Shown: in pieces, positions 1,835 to 16,108 of the stretch | Layout: the number at the start of each line of letters is the position of its first letter | Position numbering within the stretch: the stretch's first letter is position 1 | NCBI GenBank assembly: GCA_025201375.1 | Contig: JAIWZP010000029.1 | Location: forward strand, 248,001 to 312,000 | Direction of reading: 5' to 3' | DNA length: 64,000 nucleotides | Source: Gongronella butleri | Lineage: Eukaryota > Mucoromycota > Mucoromycetes > Mucorales > Cunninghamellaceae | Translations under genes and position numbers: made by a program | The notes under the pieces: model-generated | The model's input: the letters and a program-made list of their open reading frames with translations, nothing else | What the model was told of the DNA's origin: nothing | The model's database searches: none

Positions 1835-2452
1835 TCATCGCCATGGGCGGGCCGCCCGCTCCCACGTACTCGTGCACCTAATGACAATGAGGCTAGTGCT
1901 TGCAATTGCACCCAAAATAGAGACATTTGGCCCCTTGGTGTCCACTTTGATGTGGCATGGCTTTCCGATTTCACTCCACCCTTTGGCGCGGTGCATGTTG
2001 CGGTTGAATGCTGCATCATCGATAAATACGCATTCATTCAGGAACTCGATGCCACAGTGCACCATTTCGCCCCCAAATTGTTGCCTTTTCATGGTCGTAG
2101 ATTCGGTGTTCCGAGCAAAGTAGTCCGGCCGGGCGATCTTGTACGAGATGCGGCATTTGTTGCGCATATGAGCATTGACGATCCTTGGCGTGATCGCAAG
2201 GCCACGGAATTGCTCGCAAAGCATGTCAGTAACGCTTTCAACCGTCAGCGACGCTTCATTGTTAATCAAATCGATGATCCATGACCAAGAACGGTGCAAT
2301 AGGTCTTTGCCGCACTTTAGAGTGCATTCAAACCATTGGCACTCGAGCTTTTCAACAAAACTCGCATCACTTTCTGTGCAAACCTGGAACCCCCTTTTTG
2401 TTTGCACGGACATGGCACCCCTCAACGCACGTGGCACCACCACGTCATTCAC
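1835..2452 (-). pseudogene. Relic of a Tc1/mariner-type DDE transposase
   Basis: The minus strand reads about 205 residues resembling the DDE superfamily endonucleases common in Mucoromycota. A helix-turn-helix-like segment (WIIDLINNEASLTVESVTDM) is followed by a linker and the start of the catalytic core: FLNECVFIDDAAFNRN, then GWSEIGKPCHIKV and SILGAIAS. The FIDDAAF Asp corresponds to the first catalytic Asp. The frame then stops, and the second and third acidic residues are not found downstream. No clear inverted repeats or target duplication were seen. I read it as a dead, partly eroded copy. Family assignment is fairly sure; the element's ends are unknown. Confidence 0.65.
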
Positions 2453-3131
2453 TTCCTATCGCAAAAACGCCGTCTCATCCATTCACCTTAGCGACCCTCG
2501 CGTTATTACAGTATTCTTTTGCTAGTGGCGTTTTTTTTTTTTTTTGTTTCAAACGCGAAAAAAAGGCCATTTTTGCTTCCTCTTATCCAACGCTTAGTGA
2601 ACGTTTACTCCAGTGCTTTCTCTGGTCACCCTCTCAGTGCGACGCATCTGTCCACGCCCCTCACAAAGTCGATGCCAAAGCAAAGATGTATAAATGATGC
2701 CATATTTACCCGTGTGCTACTTTTCCCCGCATATCCAGCACCGCATTTACTTTTCATTAGACCCTTCTTGCCTTTTCTCTTGTAAAGGCTGGCAGTTTTG
2801 GTACCGTCGGCATCCCCTCCACGTTTGTCAACAAGTGCGATCAGCGACAATGGCCTTGTAATCGAATTTCGTCGTCGCGTTGGTGCGCGCCAGGCGTGGT
2901 CGCAGAGGGGGGGGGTGCGCTCTTTGCGAATGGCAACAATCCTGCCAAGACCGAACCTGGTTTCTTTTCCCGCCACCCGCGGAGCCTGTGGTCCCTGTAC
3001 TCCCAATCCTGACAAGTGTAAGCAGTGCGTCGTCATAGTGTGGTGAACAGGTCGCGGGGCGCAAACCTCATTGTCAAAATCTTGTTTATTTTTTTTTTTC
3101 AATGGACCCTTGTTTCGTTCTAAACAAAAAT
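2453..3131. other. Intergenic, no gene recognised
   Basis: The minus strand carries an open stretch of about 158 codons (2626-3102), but its sequence matches no family I know and its composition looks non-coding. A run of T lies at 2530-2545. Confidence 0.35.
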
Positions 3132-3407
3132 TTACGAGGGGGTACGGGAGGGTCGTTTGGGATTCAGGCCAAAAAACGTGTTGCGGGCGATGATGCGTTT
3201 TGCAACTGATTGCTGTTGTTTCTTCTTCTCCTTGTAGCGTTCATGCTGGAACCAGTGCTGGACTCGTTCCATTGAGGAATCCACATCCCTTGCGATGACA
3301 AACATCTCTGGTGTCGTGGGATATTTCATATTGGCGAACGCGCGCTTTAAAATTTCCAGCTGGTTCTTGTTGAAGCGTTTGCGATAGTGCCGCTTTTGGG
3401 GTGCCAT
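3132..3407 (-). CDS. Small homeodomain protein with N51 replaced by His
   Basis: A single exon encodes 91 residues starting MAPQKRHYRKRF. Almost the whole protein is a homeodomain: a basic N-terminal arm, QLEILKRAFANMKYP for helix 1 and the loop, then helix 3 VQHWFQHERYKEKK. The W, F, Q and flanking basic residues fit the WFQN signature. The near-invariant DNA-contacting Asn (position 51) is His, and the next Arg is Glu. Such changes normally alter or weaken TAAT-type binding. The start was chosen at MAPQ because the upstream in-frame extension is hydrophobic and T-rich. It is transcribed divergently from the topoisomerase-like gene, 235 bp away, and both proteins begin with MAP plus Lys-rich residues. 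A transcription-factor role is inferred from the fold. Confidence 0.75.
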   Translation of the reverse strand: MAPQKRHYRKRFNKNQLEILKRAFANMKYPTTPEMFVIARDVDSSMERVQHWFQHERYKEKKKQQQSVAKRIIARNTFFGLNPKRPSRTPS

Positions 3408-3642
3408 TTGGAAAAAAAAGAGGGAGAGAGAAAAGAAAACAGGAATTAAGCAAGTCAATCAATGCGGTTATGTCGTGTTCTTTTTCATATTCCGATGGCC
3501 TTGATTGGATGTTTTGTGTAGCACAGTGTTCAATGGTTAGCACAAAGGATATAAACATTTGACGATGCATAATTGTCAACAATTCTTTGCTTCTTCTTTT
3601 CCTTTCTCTTCTCATACTGGGCAGTTTTTGTTGTTCTACACA
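3408..3642. promoter_or_regulatory. Shared divergent promoter region
   Basis: This 235-bp gap separates the start codons of the homeodomain gene (minus) and the topoisomerase II-like gene (plus). Both flanks are pyrimidine-rich on their coding strands. The arrangement suggests joint regulation, which is inferred from spacing only. Confidence 0.4.
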
Positions 3643-6600
3643 ATGGCACCTAAAAAAAAAATCCCTCCTGGCGACTCATCGCATCCATCCAAGAAAGTGA
3701 GTATTTTTTTTTCTTCGCGTCGAGCTTCATATGGAATCTATGCTAATTGGCATGCTGTTTTCTGCAGTTTAAACCTGGGTCGCACGCCGCCAATCCTCAA
3801 CAAGCCGAATCATCCACGACAGCCATGCAGCAGTCCGCTTCTCACGAAGCAATGGAGCAAGATGACGATTTTGTTCCTGACGACGGCTCGGATGACTCGG
3901 ATTTTATACCAGAACAGGTTGGTCCCATTTTTTTTTTTGTTTTATCATATCAATACTCATTTGAAAACTTTTTAACAGCCATCTGGAAAGGGCAAGGCGC
4001 CGCTGAAGAAAAAGGCGCCGCAAAAGAAAAAGGCGCCGAAAAAGAAGGTTACAAAGGGGAAATCCCTTGGCGTTGTGTTCAAGCCCGGCGCGACTGGCCA
4101 GCCTGCTGATGATCCGGGCGATTCTGATCATTCAGGCGACGACAACGGCGGTGAAAGCCCGGACATCAACCAAGATGCCACCCCTGAGCCACTTGATAAT
4201 GCCACCCCTGAGCCACTTGATATTTCTCTGCTGCCCGCTCAACAACTGGCCTTTCAAAATAATCCTACTTTTTATCTTGGATCTTTGCATCGCCAAGAGA
4301 TGCCACAGTGGGTCACTCAAGGGAGCAAAATTGCACTGGAAACAAATCTCGTCATTCCAGCGTGGAAGGTGATTATCAACGCCCTTCTTGATGACGCAGC
4401 AATTGCGGTAAAAAAAAAAAAAAAAAAAGACCTCCAATTTTAATTTTTTTTTAATTAATTAATATTATAGCGAGGCATCACGCGTATCGATGTGACCTTT
4501 ATCGATGGATTGATCATGTTAAGTCATGACGCGCAACAAGATACACAGGATCCAATGGCAAAATACGGCAAGCTGCCGGAGATCACAGTAGACGACAAGC
4601 CCTGGATTTCTGCGGATGGTTCAAACTTTGGCGCCCTGTTGGCGAACCTTAGCAGCTCCATGTTTAGCGTCGACATTGTGCAGAGCGGCGTCCAGTATAG
4701 TCAGGTGTTTCAAAACCGAATGACGGTGATCAGCGATGTGCAACAAGAAAACACGGACCGCGCGGACAACACGACTATTGCATTCAATCTGGATTTGATG
4801 ATGTTTCAAAACGTGCACCCACCTTTGCCAACCGAACTCGTTGGCACGGAAGCCGACAACCGTCTCTATTCCGATTTTACGGCTTTTATGCACAAGCGCA
4901 TGATGGATTACAACGTTGTCTTTCCACACCTGACTCTGATTTTCAATGGCGACTCATTGCCAGCCGAGGATTTTGAATTATACTGCCAGCGGTACGTCGA
5001 CGACGTCAACGACATTGTTTATGACGCCGAATGCTCCGAACACTTCCAAGTCGCGTTTGCACTGTCGTCAAAATTCCAGCAGGTAAGCACAAGTCGAAAA
5101 AAAAAGAGTGCGCTCGACGCCATGCGCGACACAGCAAAGGGCTTAATTTTTTTTTAGACGAGTTTGGTGAACTCCTCTGAGACGATGGGCGGCGGCACGC
5201 ATGTTGACAAAGTGAAGCGCTTATTGATGGCTGCAATCCTTCTGCAAGCTAAGAACCAGTCTCTGATTCTGTCTCCCGCCAACGTCCAGGCACGCATGCA
5301 CATTTTTGTCAAGATCAAAATGGCAAATCCTCAATATGATTCCCAAAAGTCAATGCTCATCTCAGCCGAAAATTCACTCCCTGAATACAACTTGCATGCG
5401 GCCTTCTTGGAAAACGGTAACAAAAAAATAACAGACACCCCTACCCGCTCGTCTCTGACTTTTTTTTTTAGTCCTGCAAAAGAATATTATTGCAGAGGTG
5501 ATCCAAGATCAAGACGAAGTCGCCCATCAACAGGAAGCCCTGGTCCAACATCGCGCATCTGAAGCAGGAAAGAGGGTATACTTGGCCAATTTCCGTGATG
5601 CAACGAATGCTGGCACGATAAACTCCAATTCTTGCACTCTCATTGTCACCAGCCCAAGCAGCTTCCACCAATACAAGGCGTTGGATACGGTCCATGTCGG
5701 TGTATACCCCACGAATAGCAAGATGGTCAATGTGCGCAGCGATGGTCAGCGAGCCGTCAGCAAAAACAAGGCATGGTCCGAGCTGAAAAAGATTCTTGGG
5801 CTAAAACGCGGATCTACGGCACCAAAATTACGCTATGGCAAGATGAAATTGGCTCTGGGTACCGATGATGCGGCGTATTTGGCAATCGGCTTGATCATCA
5901 ACGCATTGGACGTCGAATTCAAAGGTGTTCTCTTGTCATCCTTTGTACAGATCGAATTTGCCAATGGCGTGACCGCTGCTGTCAATCCAATGCGCACGTC
6001 AGACAGCAACCGACTTCAACTGGCGTACAAATCTGTCGACAACCAGCGCGTCACGGAAATGATTGCCTGTCAGGACCCTGCAATAACCGGCGCCGGCAAC
6101 ACCATCAACGTGGAGGACTTTATCAACAAGTACGTTTTCCCAGCCGAGGCCCGCTCCGTCAAAACCGAGCTTCCCAGTGTCATGGATGGCTTTAACCAGC
6201 AGCAGCGGCGAGTCTTTTGGTCGGCCTTGGGTTTCCCTCAAAGTCAATCACCGACCGTCCAGGCGCTCTGCGAAAATGTCACGACATCTGGAAATTTCAC
6301 CATGGCGTCCTCCATCAAGTTGACTATTGTTAAAATGGCGCAAAATTATGTCGGAAGCAACAACATCAATGTCTTGACGCCAGCTGGCAATCTGGGAACG
6401 CGTCACTTTCACGGCAAAAATGCTGGCGATCCCATGCCGATGCCGATGAGTGTTTCCGATTCAGCGCGTTTGATTTTCAAGCAAGATGACAATCAGCTCA
6501 TCCCCAACCAGGCATCGTCTCCTTTGTTCATGCCAGTCTTGCCGATGATCCTCGTCAATGGTGCCAACAATGTCACCAAGGTCCACGAACATATCCCAAA

Positions 6601-7287
6601 GCACAATCCGGCCGATATTGCAAAGAATATCTTGCATCTACTGGACAACGAACCCATGGAGCCCATGACTCCATGGTATCGAGGCTTCCAAAGCACCGTG
6701 CACATGAGCGGAAACGATTACTACGAAAACGGTGTATGCAACATTGTGCCCGGTGGCGTCAAGGTAACAAAAAAAAAAAAAGGAAAAAGAAAAATCTTTA
6801 AAAAAAAGTCCTCATTCTTTTTTTTCTTCCTTGCAAGGTGACGGAACTGCCACTCCATCACTCACACGACACGTACCTCAAGCTGCTTGAGAAATTCCGT
6901 TTGCCCAATGTGCATTCCGCCATTCCCGGTCAATTTTGGATAAAGGGGTACGATGATCTTTCCACAGTCGACAACGTGGATATTGCGGTGTATTTGGATT
7001 CGTCGGTCATGAATGTCGTGCAACCCATGGACGACGGTGAGCGCCTGCCGGTTTTTGGCCTGGAAGGTATTGATAAACACTGCAACTTTGTCTGCATTGC
7101 CGAAAACGGCCGCATCGAGACTTTCAGCAGCGCGCTTGACATCTTGCAGTACTTTTATGACCATCGGTTGGCCATGTACACAAGTCTCAGCCCATTAGGT
7201 ACTTCCCTTGACACGATCAAAGCCAAATGGAGAGCAGACATCCAAACATTCTTGACCCACTGGCAACAAGAGATCGGCGGATCCTAG
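3643..7287 (+). CDS. Degenerate topoisomerase II-like protein, predicted catalytically dead
   Basis: Seven exons (3643-3696, 3768-3917, 3979-4407, 4471-5082, 5158-5416, 5472-6763, 6838-7287) encode 1,081 residues. The N-terminal ~155 residues are disordered, with Lys-rich KKKAP repeats that look like nuclear localisation signals and acidic patches. The rest follows type IIA topoisomerase order: GHKL ATPase (from FYLGSLH, ~166), transducer, TOPRIM (~555-670) and winged-helix/tower core (PSVMDGF ~736, MAQNYVGSNNIN ~790, GTRHFHGK ~810). Gap-free comparison with the human enzyme (recalled) shows ATPase Glu and two Asn as N202, D206 and I210. TOPRIM EGD is SPS (562-564), and DxDxDG keeps only the middle Asp (D633). 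The PRY catalytic Tyr is Pro824. The C-gate and tail are largely missing. All junctions keep frame, so it does not look like a pseudogene. Family membership is firm; loss of activity is inferred. Confidence 0.85.
4174..4221 (+). repeat. 24-nt tandem duplication inside the topoisomerase-like gene
   Basis: Two nearly identical 24-nt units encode (D/N)ATPEPLD twice in the disordered N-terminal region. Only the first base differs. Confidence 0.85.
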
Positions 7288-12925: not shown

Positions 12926-15900
12926 ATGCCATCAGAAGAGCGCAGAGAACAGCAACGGCAGCAGCTCTTGCAAATGAAGCATGCCAAAAAGCAACGACTT
13001 TTACAAGAAGCTCGCGAGAACAAACGTAAGACTTGTGAATATTGGGTTGTAAAGATTCATTTTGGCCAACATGTTTTTTTTATCATAGTGAACATTGGTC
13101 CTTGCGCGAGTTGCGGTAAAATGGGGCACAAAACCAAAGCAAGTTCTTTTTGTCCAAACAAACGTAAGTAGAAAATGTTCTGCCATTTGAAATGGTGACC
13201 CTGACGTTTTTTTTTCTAATTAGAAACCCAAGGCAAAAAGCAGTCCAAGAAGGTGACCAAGAAGCAGAGCGCCAAGGGCAAGAAGCAGCTGCAGAAAGAC
13301 ACGGCGGCCAGCACGGCCATGGGGTGCAAAGTTTGTTTGGAGACGCCGGGTGATCAATGTGAACCACATTCAAGATCATCCTCCAAGAAATGCCACGCCC
13401 ACAAGCCCACCAAGGCCGAAATCATGGACGGTCTGCTTGGAAAAAATCATCAGCAGCGGGTGGTCAAGGCGACGCTTCTCAAGAGTCTGTTGATCGCTGG
13501 TGAGAGTCGGTCCCGCCGTCGACATTTGAGACATTCGGTCGTCCAGCAAGTGCGCAATGTCGTCGATCAGGCGCAAGCAGCGTACATCCGGGCCCAATGG
13601 TTTGTGACCTACTTCTTGCTCCACACCCTTGACCAAGGTACGCAGCAAGACGACGCTGACCAAGGCACGCAGCAAGGCGATCCTGACCAAGGCGCACCAG
13701 AGCAATCGATCGACAATTTGCTGCCGCAGCTCATCCTTACACAGAAATTTATGTACAGTGCGCTGCAGCTCGTTGGCGGCAAACAAGTGGTCGACAATCA
13801 GGTCAACAACGCGTTTCCGACTCTATCGGCAGTGTTCCAGCAATTCAGCCATAGCCTCGGCGAGAGTGCCTTGGTCGACACTGGGGGCATATCGGAAGCG
13901 TTGTCGTATATGGCGATCGACATGGCGACCGCGTTTGCCAACGCCATTGTCGCCAATTTCAAGACCCGTGCAATGCAATACATCGCGTTCACCATCCGTT
14001 CACAATTAGAGCGCTCGGTAAGCTGCAGAGACCGATCCTTGCCCATACAGTCGACTGACACTTTTTTTTTTTTGGTTAGGAATGGCCCACAAGAGCAGAA
14101 ATGAAAAAGATCTGCGAGCTCGCGTACCAAGCATTGACCAATACACGCCCTGATGGCGCCGCCACTGCCGTGGACATCTCGCAAAACGTGTATGACATCT
14201 TGGAGTCTCTGGAAGATCGTCAAGCACTCGGCCCAAGCTCTGCCACCCAGCCAATCAATGTCGAGCGGCTGACATCACACGGCAACATCTACCTGGCGTA
14301 CATGTACACATGGCTCAAGGAGATGGAGGCGCACAATGACAATGCGGGCGATGTACATGGTGACAGCCAGATGGTGACCCAGGTGGACGCTGGTTGGGTG
14401 ACGCGTCGTCTTGCTCTCTTGGACGGCATTGGTGACCTGCGCAACAATGTCAGAAACAAGCTGCAGACGCACGTGCGCAGGATGATCAACACTGCAAGCA
14501 GCGTCGTTGAATTTGGCGCCGCCATCCCAGAGCCCCTGCATCAACAACTGACGGATCTAGTGCACGACGCCCGGCTCCAGATCCGCTCATCCACGCTCTT
14601 TCTCAACGGTCATGCACTGATTGATCCCAGCACCTGCGTGTGGTCCAGCACCGCCCCTGTGATTGCCAAGGCCAAGCTTTTCAACCTCGCGCCCCAGACA
14701 AATTGGAAAAAGCGGTTCATCACGTTGCCTCCCTCCTTATTCGCTCGCATCTTGCGAAGCGCTGGTGTTCCGCATACGCCCTACAACAGAACCGCTGACC
14801 CGCTTGGAGAAGAGCCCACAATGGAATGGCAAAGGACACGCGCTCAATTGGCTGCAGATGCCGTTGTCTTCTCAGAGGTGTTTGACATGAAAAAAGTCCG
14901 GCTTGCTGACCCGTAAGTCAAAAAAAAAAAAAAGTAATTGTCAAAATTGATTTTTATTTTTATTTTTTTTTAGCTGCCACGCCTTTCTGCAATATCAGCC
15001 CGACATCCAAGGCAACTTTACCAAGGTGTTTGCCAATCTCATTCGCACCGATGGGCACACGGTAGACTTTGTGTACAACAGACGCGTGCCGGACCACCAC
15101 GGATTGCCGGACCTTGACCTTGGTGACTTTGTTGGCCGCGACGATTATTGCCTTACTGCTGTGGACCCTGGCCATACGACGCTGATGACCGCAGTGGACG
15201 TGAACGGCATCACCAGGACGCTGGGCAATACCGAGTTCTACCACAAGGCTGGCTTCATGAAGCGCCGCTACTATCAGCAGCAAGACCAAGCCAACGAGGG
15301 CATCAGCGACCTGCTGAACAAGATTCCAGCGTCCGCGACGTCACGCCCCGATGTATGGCTCGCGCACTGCCAAGGTGCCCTCGCCGTCATGGATCCCCTC
15401 ATTGCCCACTTTGGTTACCGCTACTGCAACGACCGCTTCCGTGCGTACCGCGACAATCAGAAAATGGAGCATGAAGCGGCCAACATCCTCGTCACTGGCG
15501 GCGCAAAGTACAAGCACAGCTACCAGGAAGCGTAAGCAAACTTGCGCGGGTGACGGACACACAGGCGAGCCAGGCTCACTTTTTTTTTTTTTTTTTTTTT
15601 TTTTTTAGAGAGAAGCTGCCGCTGATCGCGTACGGCGCCGCCCAGTTCCAATCGATCAAAGGCAAGAAGCAGATGCGCAGCCTCATGGGGGCCCTGAAGC
15701 GCGCAGAAAATGAGGGCCGCTGCTGCATTACCATGATCAACGAGGCTTATACGTCACAGGCAAGTCTCAATGGAGCGTTTTCGGGGCAATCTCTCATTTT
15801 CTTTTTTTTTTATTTTTCTTTAGGTCTGCCCATCCTGTTCCCTGCGTTCGCTGCAAGCGTTACCCGCACTCAGCAACGTCAGCAACAAGATGGAAGCACT

Positions 15901-16108
15901 GTGGCCCATCAAGATCTGCGTCTCTTGCCGACGCATTTGGAATCGTGACGTGGCAGCGGCCACCAACATGGTCGACATTGCGCAGCTGCTTTTGCAGGGT
16001 CTCGCGCGCCCAGCACACTTTGTGTACAAGGCCGAAGGCACAGCACACGTTTTCCCTGCGGCGCGACACGCCCTCCAAGCGTTTGGCAATACGCTTCAAC
16101 ACTGGTGA
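12926..16108 (+). CDS. Fanzor (TnpB-like RNA-guided endonuclease family), apparently intact
   Basis: Seven exons (12926-13025, 13089-13163, 13224-14017, 14080-14912, 14974-15531, 15609-15759, 15824-16108) encode 931 residues. In order: a charged N-terminal helix; a zinc-knuckle-like C39-x2-C-x4-H-x7-C55; a Lys-rich stretch (~62-82) that could be a nuclear localisation signal; a long helical recognition region; then a split RuvC nuclease. RuvC-I is AVDPGH (D665). The bridge-like segment is RFRAYRDNQKMEHEAANIL. The relocated Glu typical of Fanzor lies in INEAYTSQ (E832), directly before the zinc ribbon C839-x2-C842 and C869-x2-C872. RuvC-III is WNRDVAAATNM (D879). All three acidic residues, four zinc Cys and the frame are kept, so it may be active. 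Intron 6 is GC-AG. Fanzors are known to use an RNA from the 3' end of their own element; that region follows here. Subtype 1 versus 2 was not resolved. Confidence 0.85.
13631..13711 (+). repeat. 27-nt repeat, three copies, within Fanzor
   Basis: Units starting at 13631, 13658 and 13685 encode DQGTQQDDA, DQGTQQGDP and DQGAPEQSI. This is an in-frame expansion in a loop of the helical region. Confidence 0.8.

Follow-up and report, generated by a model that had tools for sequence, protein, structure and literature searches.

pTOP, an intact and apparently catalytically dead topoisomerase II paralogue in Gongronella butleri

Introduction

Topoisomerase II (TOP2; yeast Top2, human TOP2A/B) is essential and is among the best-studied enzymes and drug targets. 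Its structural and catalytic roles are usually probed with engineered dead mutants, and a natural TOP2 that keeps the fold and drops the chemistry would help to separate them. A candidate is pTOP, the name given here to the gene at positions 3643-7287 of a 64,000-nucleotide stretch of DNA (the window) from the soil mould Gongronella butleri (Mucorales, Cunninghamellaceae). The window covers positions 248001-312000 of contig C33, in a genome of 33 Mb and 110 contigs. Judged from its sequence, pTOP is a genuine, intact and catalytically dead TOP2 paralogue.

Topo VIB-like proteins, which work with the meiotic nuclease SPO11, are homologous to subunit B of the type IIB enzyme Topo VI (PMC11077084, PMC11746154). 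A. thaliana MTOPVIB is described as lacking ATP binding (PMC11077084) and Rec102 as lacking a clear GHKL part (PMC11746154). Within type IIA, no dead, pseudo or degenerate full-length TOP2 paralogue was evident from titles and the beginnings of abstracts in the open-licence literature, in keeping with the initial annotation of the window, which knew of no described eukaryotic pseudo-topoisomerase II.

pTOP is an intact gene, descended from TOP2, that has lost catalytic residues preferentially and has kept far more of its core than neutral change would leave. It is best explained, with a probability of about 0.55, as a topoisomerase II pseudoenzyme, that is, a diverged, intron-bearing duplicate of the host's own TOP2 retained as a folded protein for a non-enzyme job.

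Loss of the catalytic sites

Catalytic positions were followed in a family alignment of 70 rows (pTOP and 69 TOP2s). Among 38 columns that we take, from the topoisomerase literature, to be active-site positions, the 33 that are at least 90% conserved were counted. pTOP keeps 4 of these 33, versus 100 of 209 other columns of equal conservation (p 1e-4 by Fisher's test); when gap columns are excluded, the figures are 4/25 and 100/185 (p 4e-4). By this alignment, catalytic residues are lost preferentially. Those still present are one lid Gly, the QTK Gln, D633 and R747, and the QTK Lys is replaced. pTOP lacks the ATPase residues of a functional topoisomerase II (Glu/Asn/Asn, N-x-G-x-G, lid, QTK), as well as EGD and DxDxD, the Arg-Tyr of the WHD, and the C-gate dimer domain. 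The sites concerned, all on the forward strand, are as follows.

4381-4407, +: degenerate ATPase helix ALLDDAAIA; the Glu/Asn/Asn columns are A203/D207/A211
4615-4638, +: degenerate ATP lid DGSNFGAL, replacing TOP2 GRNGYGAK
5651-5659, +: SPS in place of TOPRIM EGD (residues 562-564)
5858-5875, +: GTDDAA in place of TOPRIM DxDxDG (residues 631-636); D633 is the one Asp of three kept
5972-6037, +: approximate site of a deletion of about 60 residues, which takes away KGLGTS and the position that intron 5 occupies in TOP2
6296-6310, +: FTMAS, replacing the HHGE segment in the alignment
6437-6439, +: Pro824 at the catalytic Tyr column; the Arg-Tyr of PRY is M823/P824
7180-7224, +: approximate site of a C-gate deletion of about 114 residues; a fragment elsewhere in the genome (C42) shows equal spacing

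The near-total replacement of catalytic residues described in the initial annotation is therefore confirmed, with 4 of 33 kept, and so are the individual replacements at the lid, SPS, GTDDAA, FTMAS and Pro824. Its statement that the WHD motifs VGSNNIN and GTR survive also stands, with Arg747 kept in addition. Its assignment of Glu/Asn/Asn to N202/D206/I210 was wrong, as the list shows, and so was its description of an alignment without gaps. pTOP lacks about 60 residues of the stretch that joins TOPRIM to the WHD, KGLGTS among them, and about 114 residues of the coiled coil and C-gate; it has smaller gaps in the ATPase and TOPRIM parts and no C-terminal domain. "Full-length" holds for the ATPase-like, transducer, TOPRIM-like, WHD and tower parts and fails for the C-gate and the KGLGTS segment. 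Enzymatic activity through a shifted alignment, which the same annotation had named as a way of restoring Tyr and DxD, is rejected: in the 70-row alignment, the columns concerned hold neither the Tyr nor EGD nor a complete DxDxD.

An intact gene with TOP2 introns

The splice model of pTOP comprises seven exons encoding 1081 amino acids and a single terminal stop (window 3643-7287). Its six introns (71, 61, 63, 75, 55 and 74 bp) are all of the GT..AG type and preserve the reading frame, and no disabling stop, frameshift or lost splice site was found in the 1081 codons and six introns.

3643-3696, +: exon 1, residues 1-18; an in-frame ATG lies upstream at 3565
3768-3917, +: exon 2, residues 19-68, acidic N-terminal tail
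3979-4407, +: exon 3, residues 69-211, Lys-rich tail and then the beginning of the ATPase-like part
about 3985-4062, +: Lys-rich tail, resembling a nuclear localization signal by eye only
4471-5082, +: exon 4, residues 212-415, remaining ATPase-like part and beginning of the transducer
5158-5416, +: exon 5, transducer, within the PF00204 match (residues 396-505)
5472-6763, +: exon 6, TOPRIM-like part, WHD and most of the tower
6838-7287, +: exon 7, end of the tower and a shortened coiled-coil hairpin; stop TAG at 7285-7287

The NCBI protein P0001, entered as 'DNA topoisomerase [Gongronella butleri]', is identical over its residues 27-1107 to the 1081-residue product. It starts at the upstream ATG at 3565, which adds 26 residues and gives 1107 aa; since it otherwise consists of the pTOP residues, the same introns are implied by the NCBI protein. 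The seven exons and six in-frame introns first read from the DNA are thus supported by the splice model and by P0001, and the stops or frameshifts that would have marked a pseudogene are absent from the assembled open reading frame. A chance resemblance to TOP2 is ruled out by a sequence search against yeast Top2 (E 4e-62). Pfam matches were obtained to PF00521 (117 bits) and PF00204 (41 bits).

An intact second TOP2, whose presence elsewhere in the genome had been suggested as a check, was found on contig C78 (L004, minus strand). It encodes 1343 aa in six exons, has its catalytic motifs, and is 76-78% identical to the TOP2s of Halteromyces, Cunninghamella, Absidia and Chlamydoabsidia among the matches listed. 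pTOP is 29% identical to this TOP2 and 28-29% identical to the other Mucorales TOP2s compared. Three introns, adjoining TOP2 residues I216, V434 and V524, are common to pTOP, the host TOP2 and a further relative in the genome, the C6 gene. Those at V434 and V524 (phase 1) are exactly in register and flank pTOP exon 5, in the same column and phase as in the host TOP2, and the I216 intron is off by one alignment column. These shared introns indicate that pTOP arose by DNA-level duplication of the host gene, and they rule out a retroposed copy or processed pseudogene.

The best careful tree places pTOP within Mucorales (99/99), and a placement outside them is not rejected by the approximately unbiased test (p 0.106). 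The terminal branch of pTOP in this tree is 10 changes per column, versus a median of 0.18. A quick tree put pTOP within Absidia/Cunninghamella/Gongronella, and the careful tree left the branching point unresolved. In the database search, P0001 and a plant TOP2 are followed mostly by metagenomic TOP2s 1071-1073 aa long. A viral origin is disfavoured, as the shared introns and the Mucorales placement favour the host TOP2.

Selection or decay

Whether such a sequence could have drifted to its present state was approached by simulation. When 1035 TOP2 codons were neutrally substituted to 38% and 24% identity in 100 runs, the mean number of in-frame stops was 25 and 33, with run minima of 15 and 17; pTOP, at 29% identity, has none. 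In a second simulation, stops were barred and 300 neutral runs were taken to the identity of pTOP. Of 249 conserved hydrophobic columns, pTOP keeps 216, against a neutral mean of 159 and maximum of 179; conserved Gly at 18/32 and Pro at 13/17 also exceed their neutral maxima (17 and 11). Conserved polar columns (36/61) fall within the neutral range (mean 26, maximum 40), and neither basic (14/45, neutral mean 17) nor acidic columns (10/38, mean 12) show an excess. It follows that the core has been conserved and that conserved charged positions have changed approximately neutrally.

The absence of stops, the retention of core residues and the preferential loss of catalytic residues together support a pseudoenzyme reading; on this residue pattern, pTOP bears a pseudoenzyme signature and not one of decay, as the initial annotation had proposed in favouring selection for a non-catalytic role. 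Catalytic residues are lost and the fold, as predicted, is kept.

Predicted structure and charge

In an AlphaFold model of pTOP (predicted TM-score, pTM, 0.56), each half is predicted with the TOP2 fold (N-gate and DNA gate), and the C-gate region is reduced to a helical hairpin. The C-gate is the constitutive dimer interface of TOP2, and the ATP site, which drives N-gate closure, is also gone from pTOP. Of 59 columns where at least 90% of 28 TOP2s carry a basic residue, pTOP has kept a basic residue in 15 and has a gap in 8. Within the aligned span, Lys and Arg number 173 of 1193 residues in the host TOP2, a span that takes in its C-gate and basic C-terminal tail, versus 74 of 932 in pTOP. 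Net charge in pTOP versus the host TOP2 is -12 versus +5 in the ATPase-like part, -5 versus +3 in the transducer and -12 versus -5 in the tower, and is +9 versus +5 in the TOPRIM-like part and +2 versus -2 in the WHD. With these last two parts positive and the Lys-rich N-terminal tail remaining, some DNA binding by pTOP may occur.

Relatives in databases and in the genome

Orthologues of pTOP were sought among 5.8 billion proteins. The full-length search, in which the 7992 best word-sharing candidates were scored, returned 106 matches and no orthologue, the 105 matches other than pTOP being TOP2-like at 22-31% identity. A search with residues 150-530 matched pTOP alone among 6342 candidates. 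In a simulation of the word look-up, at least two words were shared by an orthologue of 50% identity in 84% of draws and by one of 40% identity in 25%, so that orthologues under about 45% identity may be missed. TOP2s of sister genera are present in the database, and their proteomes are probably included. The only Gongronella proteins among the matches listed (for the host TOP2 search, the best 120 of 7989) are pTOP and the host TOP2.

Besides TOP2 and pTOP, the genome holds four more TOP2-derived loci, giving five TOP2-derived copies, two of them intact (pTOP and C6) and three fragments.

L014 6325-4515, minus strand: C6, an N-gate-only TOP2 relative, intact, 5 exons, 475 aa
L013 5174-4812, minus strand: C42 fragment, C-terminal, 30% identical to pTOP, with one stop and, by eye, a frame change
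L023 4377-4694, plus strand: C13 fragment, TOP2-derived, 40% identical to the C6 gene, with a stop in the matched part
L031 5239-5081 and 4544-4320, minus strand: C32 fragment, 60% identical to the C6 gene, with stops in the second piece

The C6 gene consists of ATPase-like and transducer parts, ends near the transducer-TOPRIM linker and is 40% identical to the host TOP2 over 355 columns. In its ATP site the Glu is kept, and Asn/Asn and part of the lid are changed; conserved charges are mostly kept (basic 12/15, acidic 11/14). Between C6 and the C32 fragment, the nonsynonymous and synonymous distances are dN 0.25 and dS 0.73 over 53 codons only, too short to lean on. The spacing across the C-gate deletion is 25 residues in both pTOP and the C42 fragment, which suggests that the deletion is older than at least one duplication.

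Genomic neighbourhood

A multi-exon gene lies at about 13040-16027 (+) of the window, 6 kb from pTOP. It matched nothing in Pfam or PDB sequence searches, and its RuvC-like motif is one that we take to be of the TnpB/Fanzor kind. A 100-aa probe of this gene matches at least three loci in the genome (C33, C18 and C6), and the C6 TOP2 relative is flanked on both sides by a copy or piece of it. It is thus found beside two of the five TOP2-derived loci, which may be more than chance. An open reading frame at 1835-2455 (minus strand), about 1.2 kb upstream of pTOP, matches DDE_3 at 24.6 bits, below the cut-off of 28.6, and a related one lies near the C6 gene.

A small homeodomain gene at 3132-3407 (minus strand; PF00046, 51 bits) is divergent from pTOP, about 160 bp from its upstream ATG, and reads WFQHER where WFQNRR is usual. 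Between 16487 and 63496, 11 of 12 further open reading frames match ordinary Pfam families: nucleotide-sugar transporter, TPR, APC3, ion channel, AAA ATPase, GH38, PRPP synthetase, CAP-Gly, glucosamine isomerase-like, P4-ATPase N-terminus and endonuclease/phosphatase.

The proposed pseudoenzyme role and alternative explanations

Under the pseudoenzyme reading, a duplicate of the host TOP2 lost its ATP site, TOPRIM metal site, cleavage tyrosine and C-gate and was retained as a folded protein. The protein would be nuclear and ATP-independent and would rely on contacts with other proteins through surfaces that it inherited from TOP2 (transducer, WHD and tower). It might serve as a scaffold, or it might regulate or compete with TOP2 or the partners of TOP2; neither strand passage nor a three-gate DNA clamp would be its mode of action. 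Several observations weigh against this reading. The AlphaFold model is biased towards TOP2, since its alignment consists of TOP2s, and whole-chain superposition on yeast Top2 (4gfh_A) is poor (TM-score 0.43; root-mean-square deviation 34.5 Å), which with the pTM of 0.56 means that the mutual placement of the two halves is not predicted. Between pTOP and TOP2, the proportions of nonsynonymous and synonymous differences (pN 0.51, pS 0.73) give a corrected ratio of about 0.33 with synonymous sites near saturation. A ratio of about 0.5 would be expected if one branch evolved freely and the other under constraint, so the comparison is weak. With no orthologue of pTOP found in the two protein searches, lasting selection across species is unsupported and the generality of any lesson is limited. 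The other TOP2-derived copies include broken fragments, so such copies do decay in this genome.

Part of this evidence would also suit a young pseudogene, a duplicate once useful and now released from selection, yet unbroken. The very long branch, the lack of a detected orthologue and the state of the C42, C13 and C32 relatives, all of them fragments interrupted by a stop within a matched piece, speak for it. However, 1081 codons and six GT..AG introns carry no lesion, and core residues are so far above neutral that any release must be recent, which leaves this explanation unlikely. An improbable one is a DNA-binding architectural protein or passive clamp, using the DNA-gate surface of TOP2 and the Lys-rich tail. 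The tail itself, VGSNNIN, GTR and Arg747 in the WHD, and net charges above those of the host TOP2 in the TOPRIM-like part and WHD are consistent with it. Nevertheless, pTOP has lost the ATP site, the C-gate and the majority of the conserved basic positions, so that a ring-like DNA clamp is unlikely, and the ATPase-like, transducer and tower parts are more negative than in the host TOP2. The clamp or architectural role put forward in the initial annotation is weakened accordingly: a protein-interaction scaffold or a competitor for TOP2 partners is likelier than a DNA clamp.

A regulator of TOP2 that pairs as a dead partner with an intact subunit, in a dominant-negative or nick-limited heterodimer, would fit the predicted N-gate and DNA-gate folds and the presence of an intact TOP2, but it would have to do without the C-gate, which we take to be the main constitutive dimer contact, and is quite improbable. 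Genomic conflict or passage with mobile DNA, in which TOP2-derived copies would duplicate with mobile elements and evolve fast, is very doubtful. The low-copy TnpB/Fanzor-like gene near pTOP and on both sides of C6, together with the DDE_3-like transposase frame, points towards it, yet no TnpB/Fanzor-like gene occurs within the loci of about 10 kb at C42, C13 and C32, and the C18 copy has no TOP2 piece in the surrounding 20 kb.

Comparison with known systems

pTOP is homologous to topoisomerase II along the ATPase-like, transducer, TOPRIM-like, WHD and tower parts, resembles it in the predicted fold of each half, and shares introns with the host TOP2. It differs in that its three active sites are mostly replaced, KGLGTS and the C-gate are deleted, and no C-terminal domain is present. 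The Topo VIB-like proteins (MTOPVIB/TOPOVIBL, Rec102) are, like pTOP, eukaryotic derivatives of type II topoisomerases with a degenerate ATP site. Unlike these SPO11 partners, pTOP derives from type IIA TOP2, and no orthologue of it was found among the proteins searched; that pTOP is itself Topo VIB-like is ruled out, as its PF00521 and PF00204 matches and shared introns show TOP2 descent. The C6 gene is like pTOP an intact, intron-bearing TOP2 duplicate with a damaged ATP site and three introns in common, and is unlike it in having ATPase-like and transducer parts only and in mostly keeping its conserved charges. Tentatively, the two may represent a Gongronella family of TOP2 pseudoenzymes, one C-gate-less and otherwise full-length and the other N-gate-only, that perform a non-catalytic chromosome job. 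Such a family would parallel, within type IIA, the meiotic Topo VIB-like proteins, and would be the first derived from a eukaryotic TOP2.
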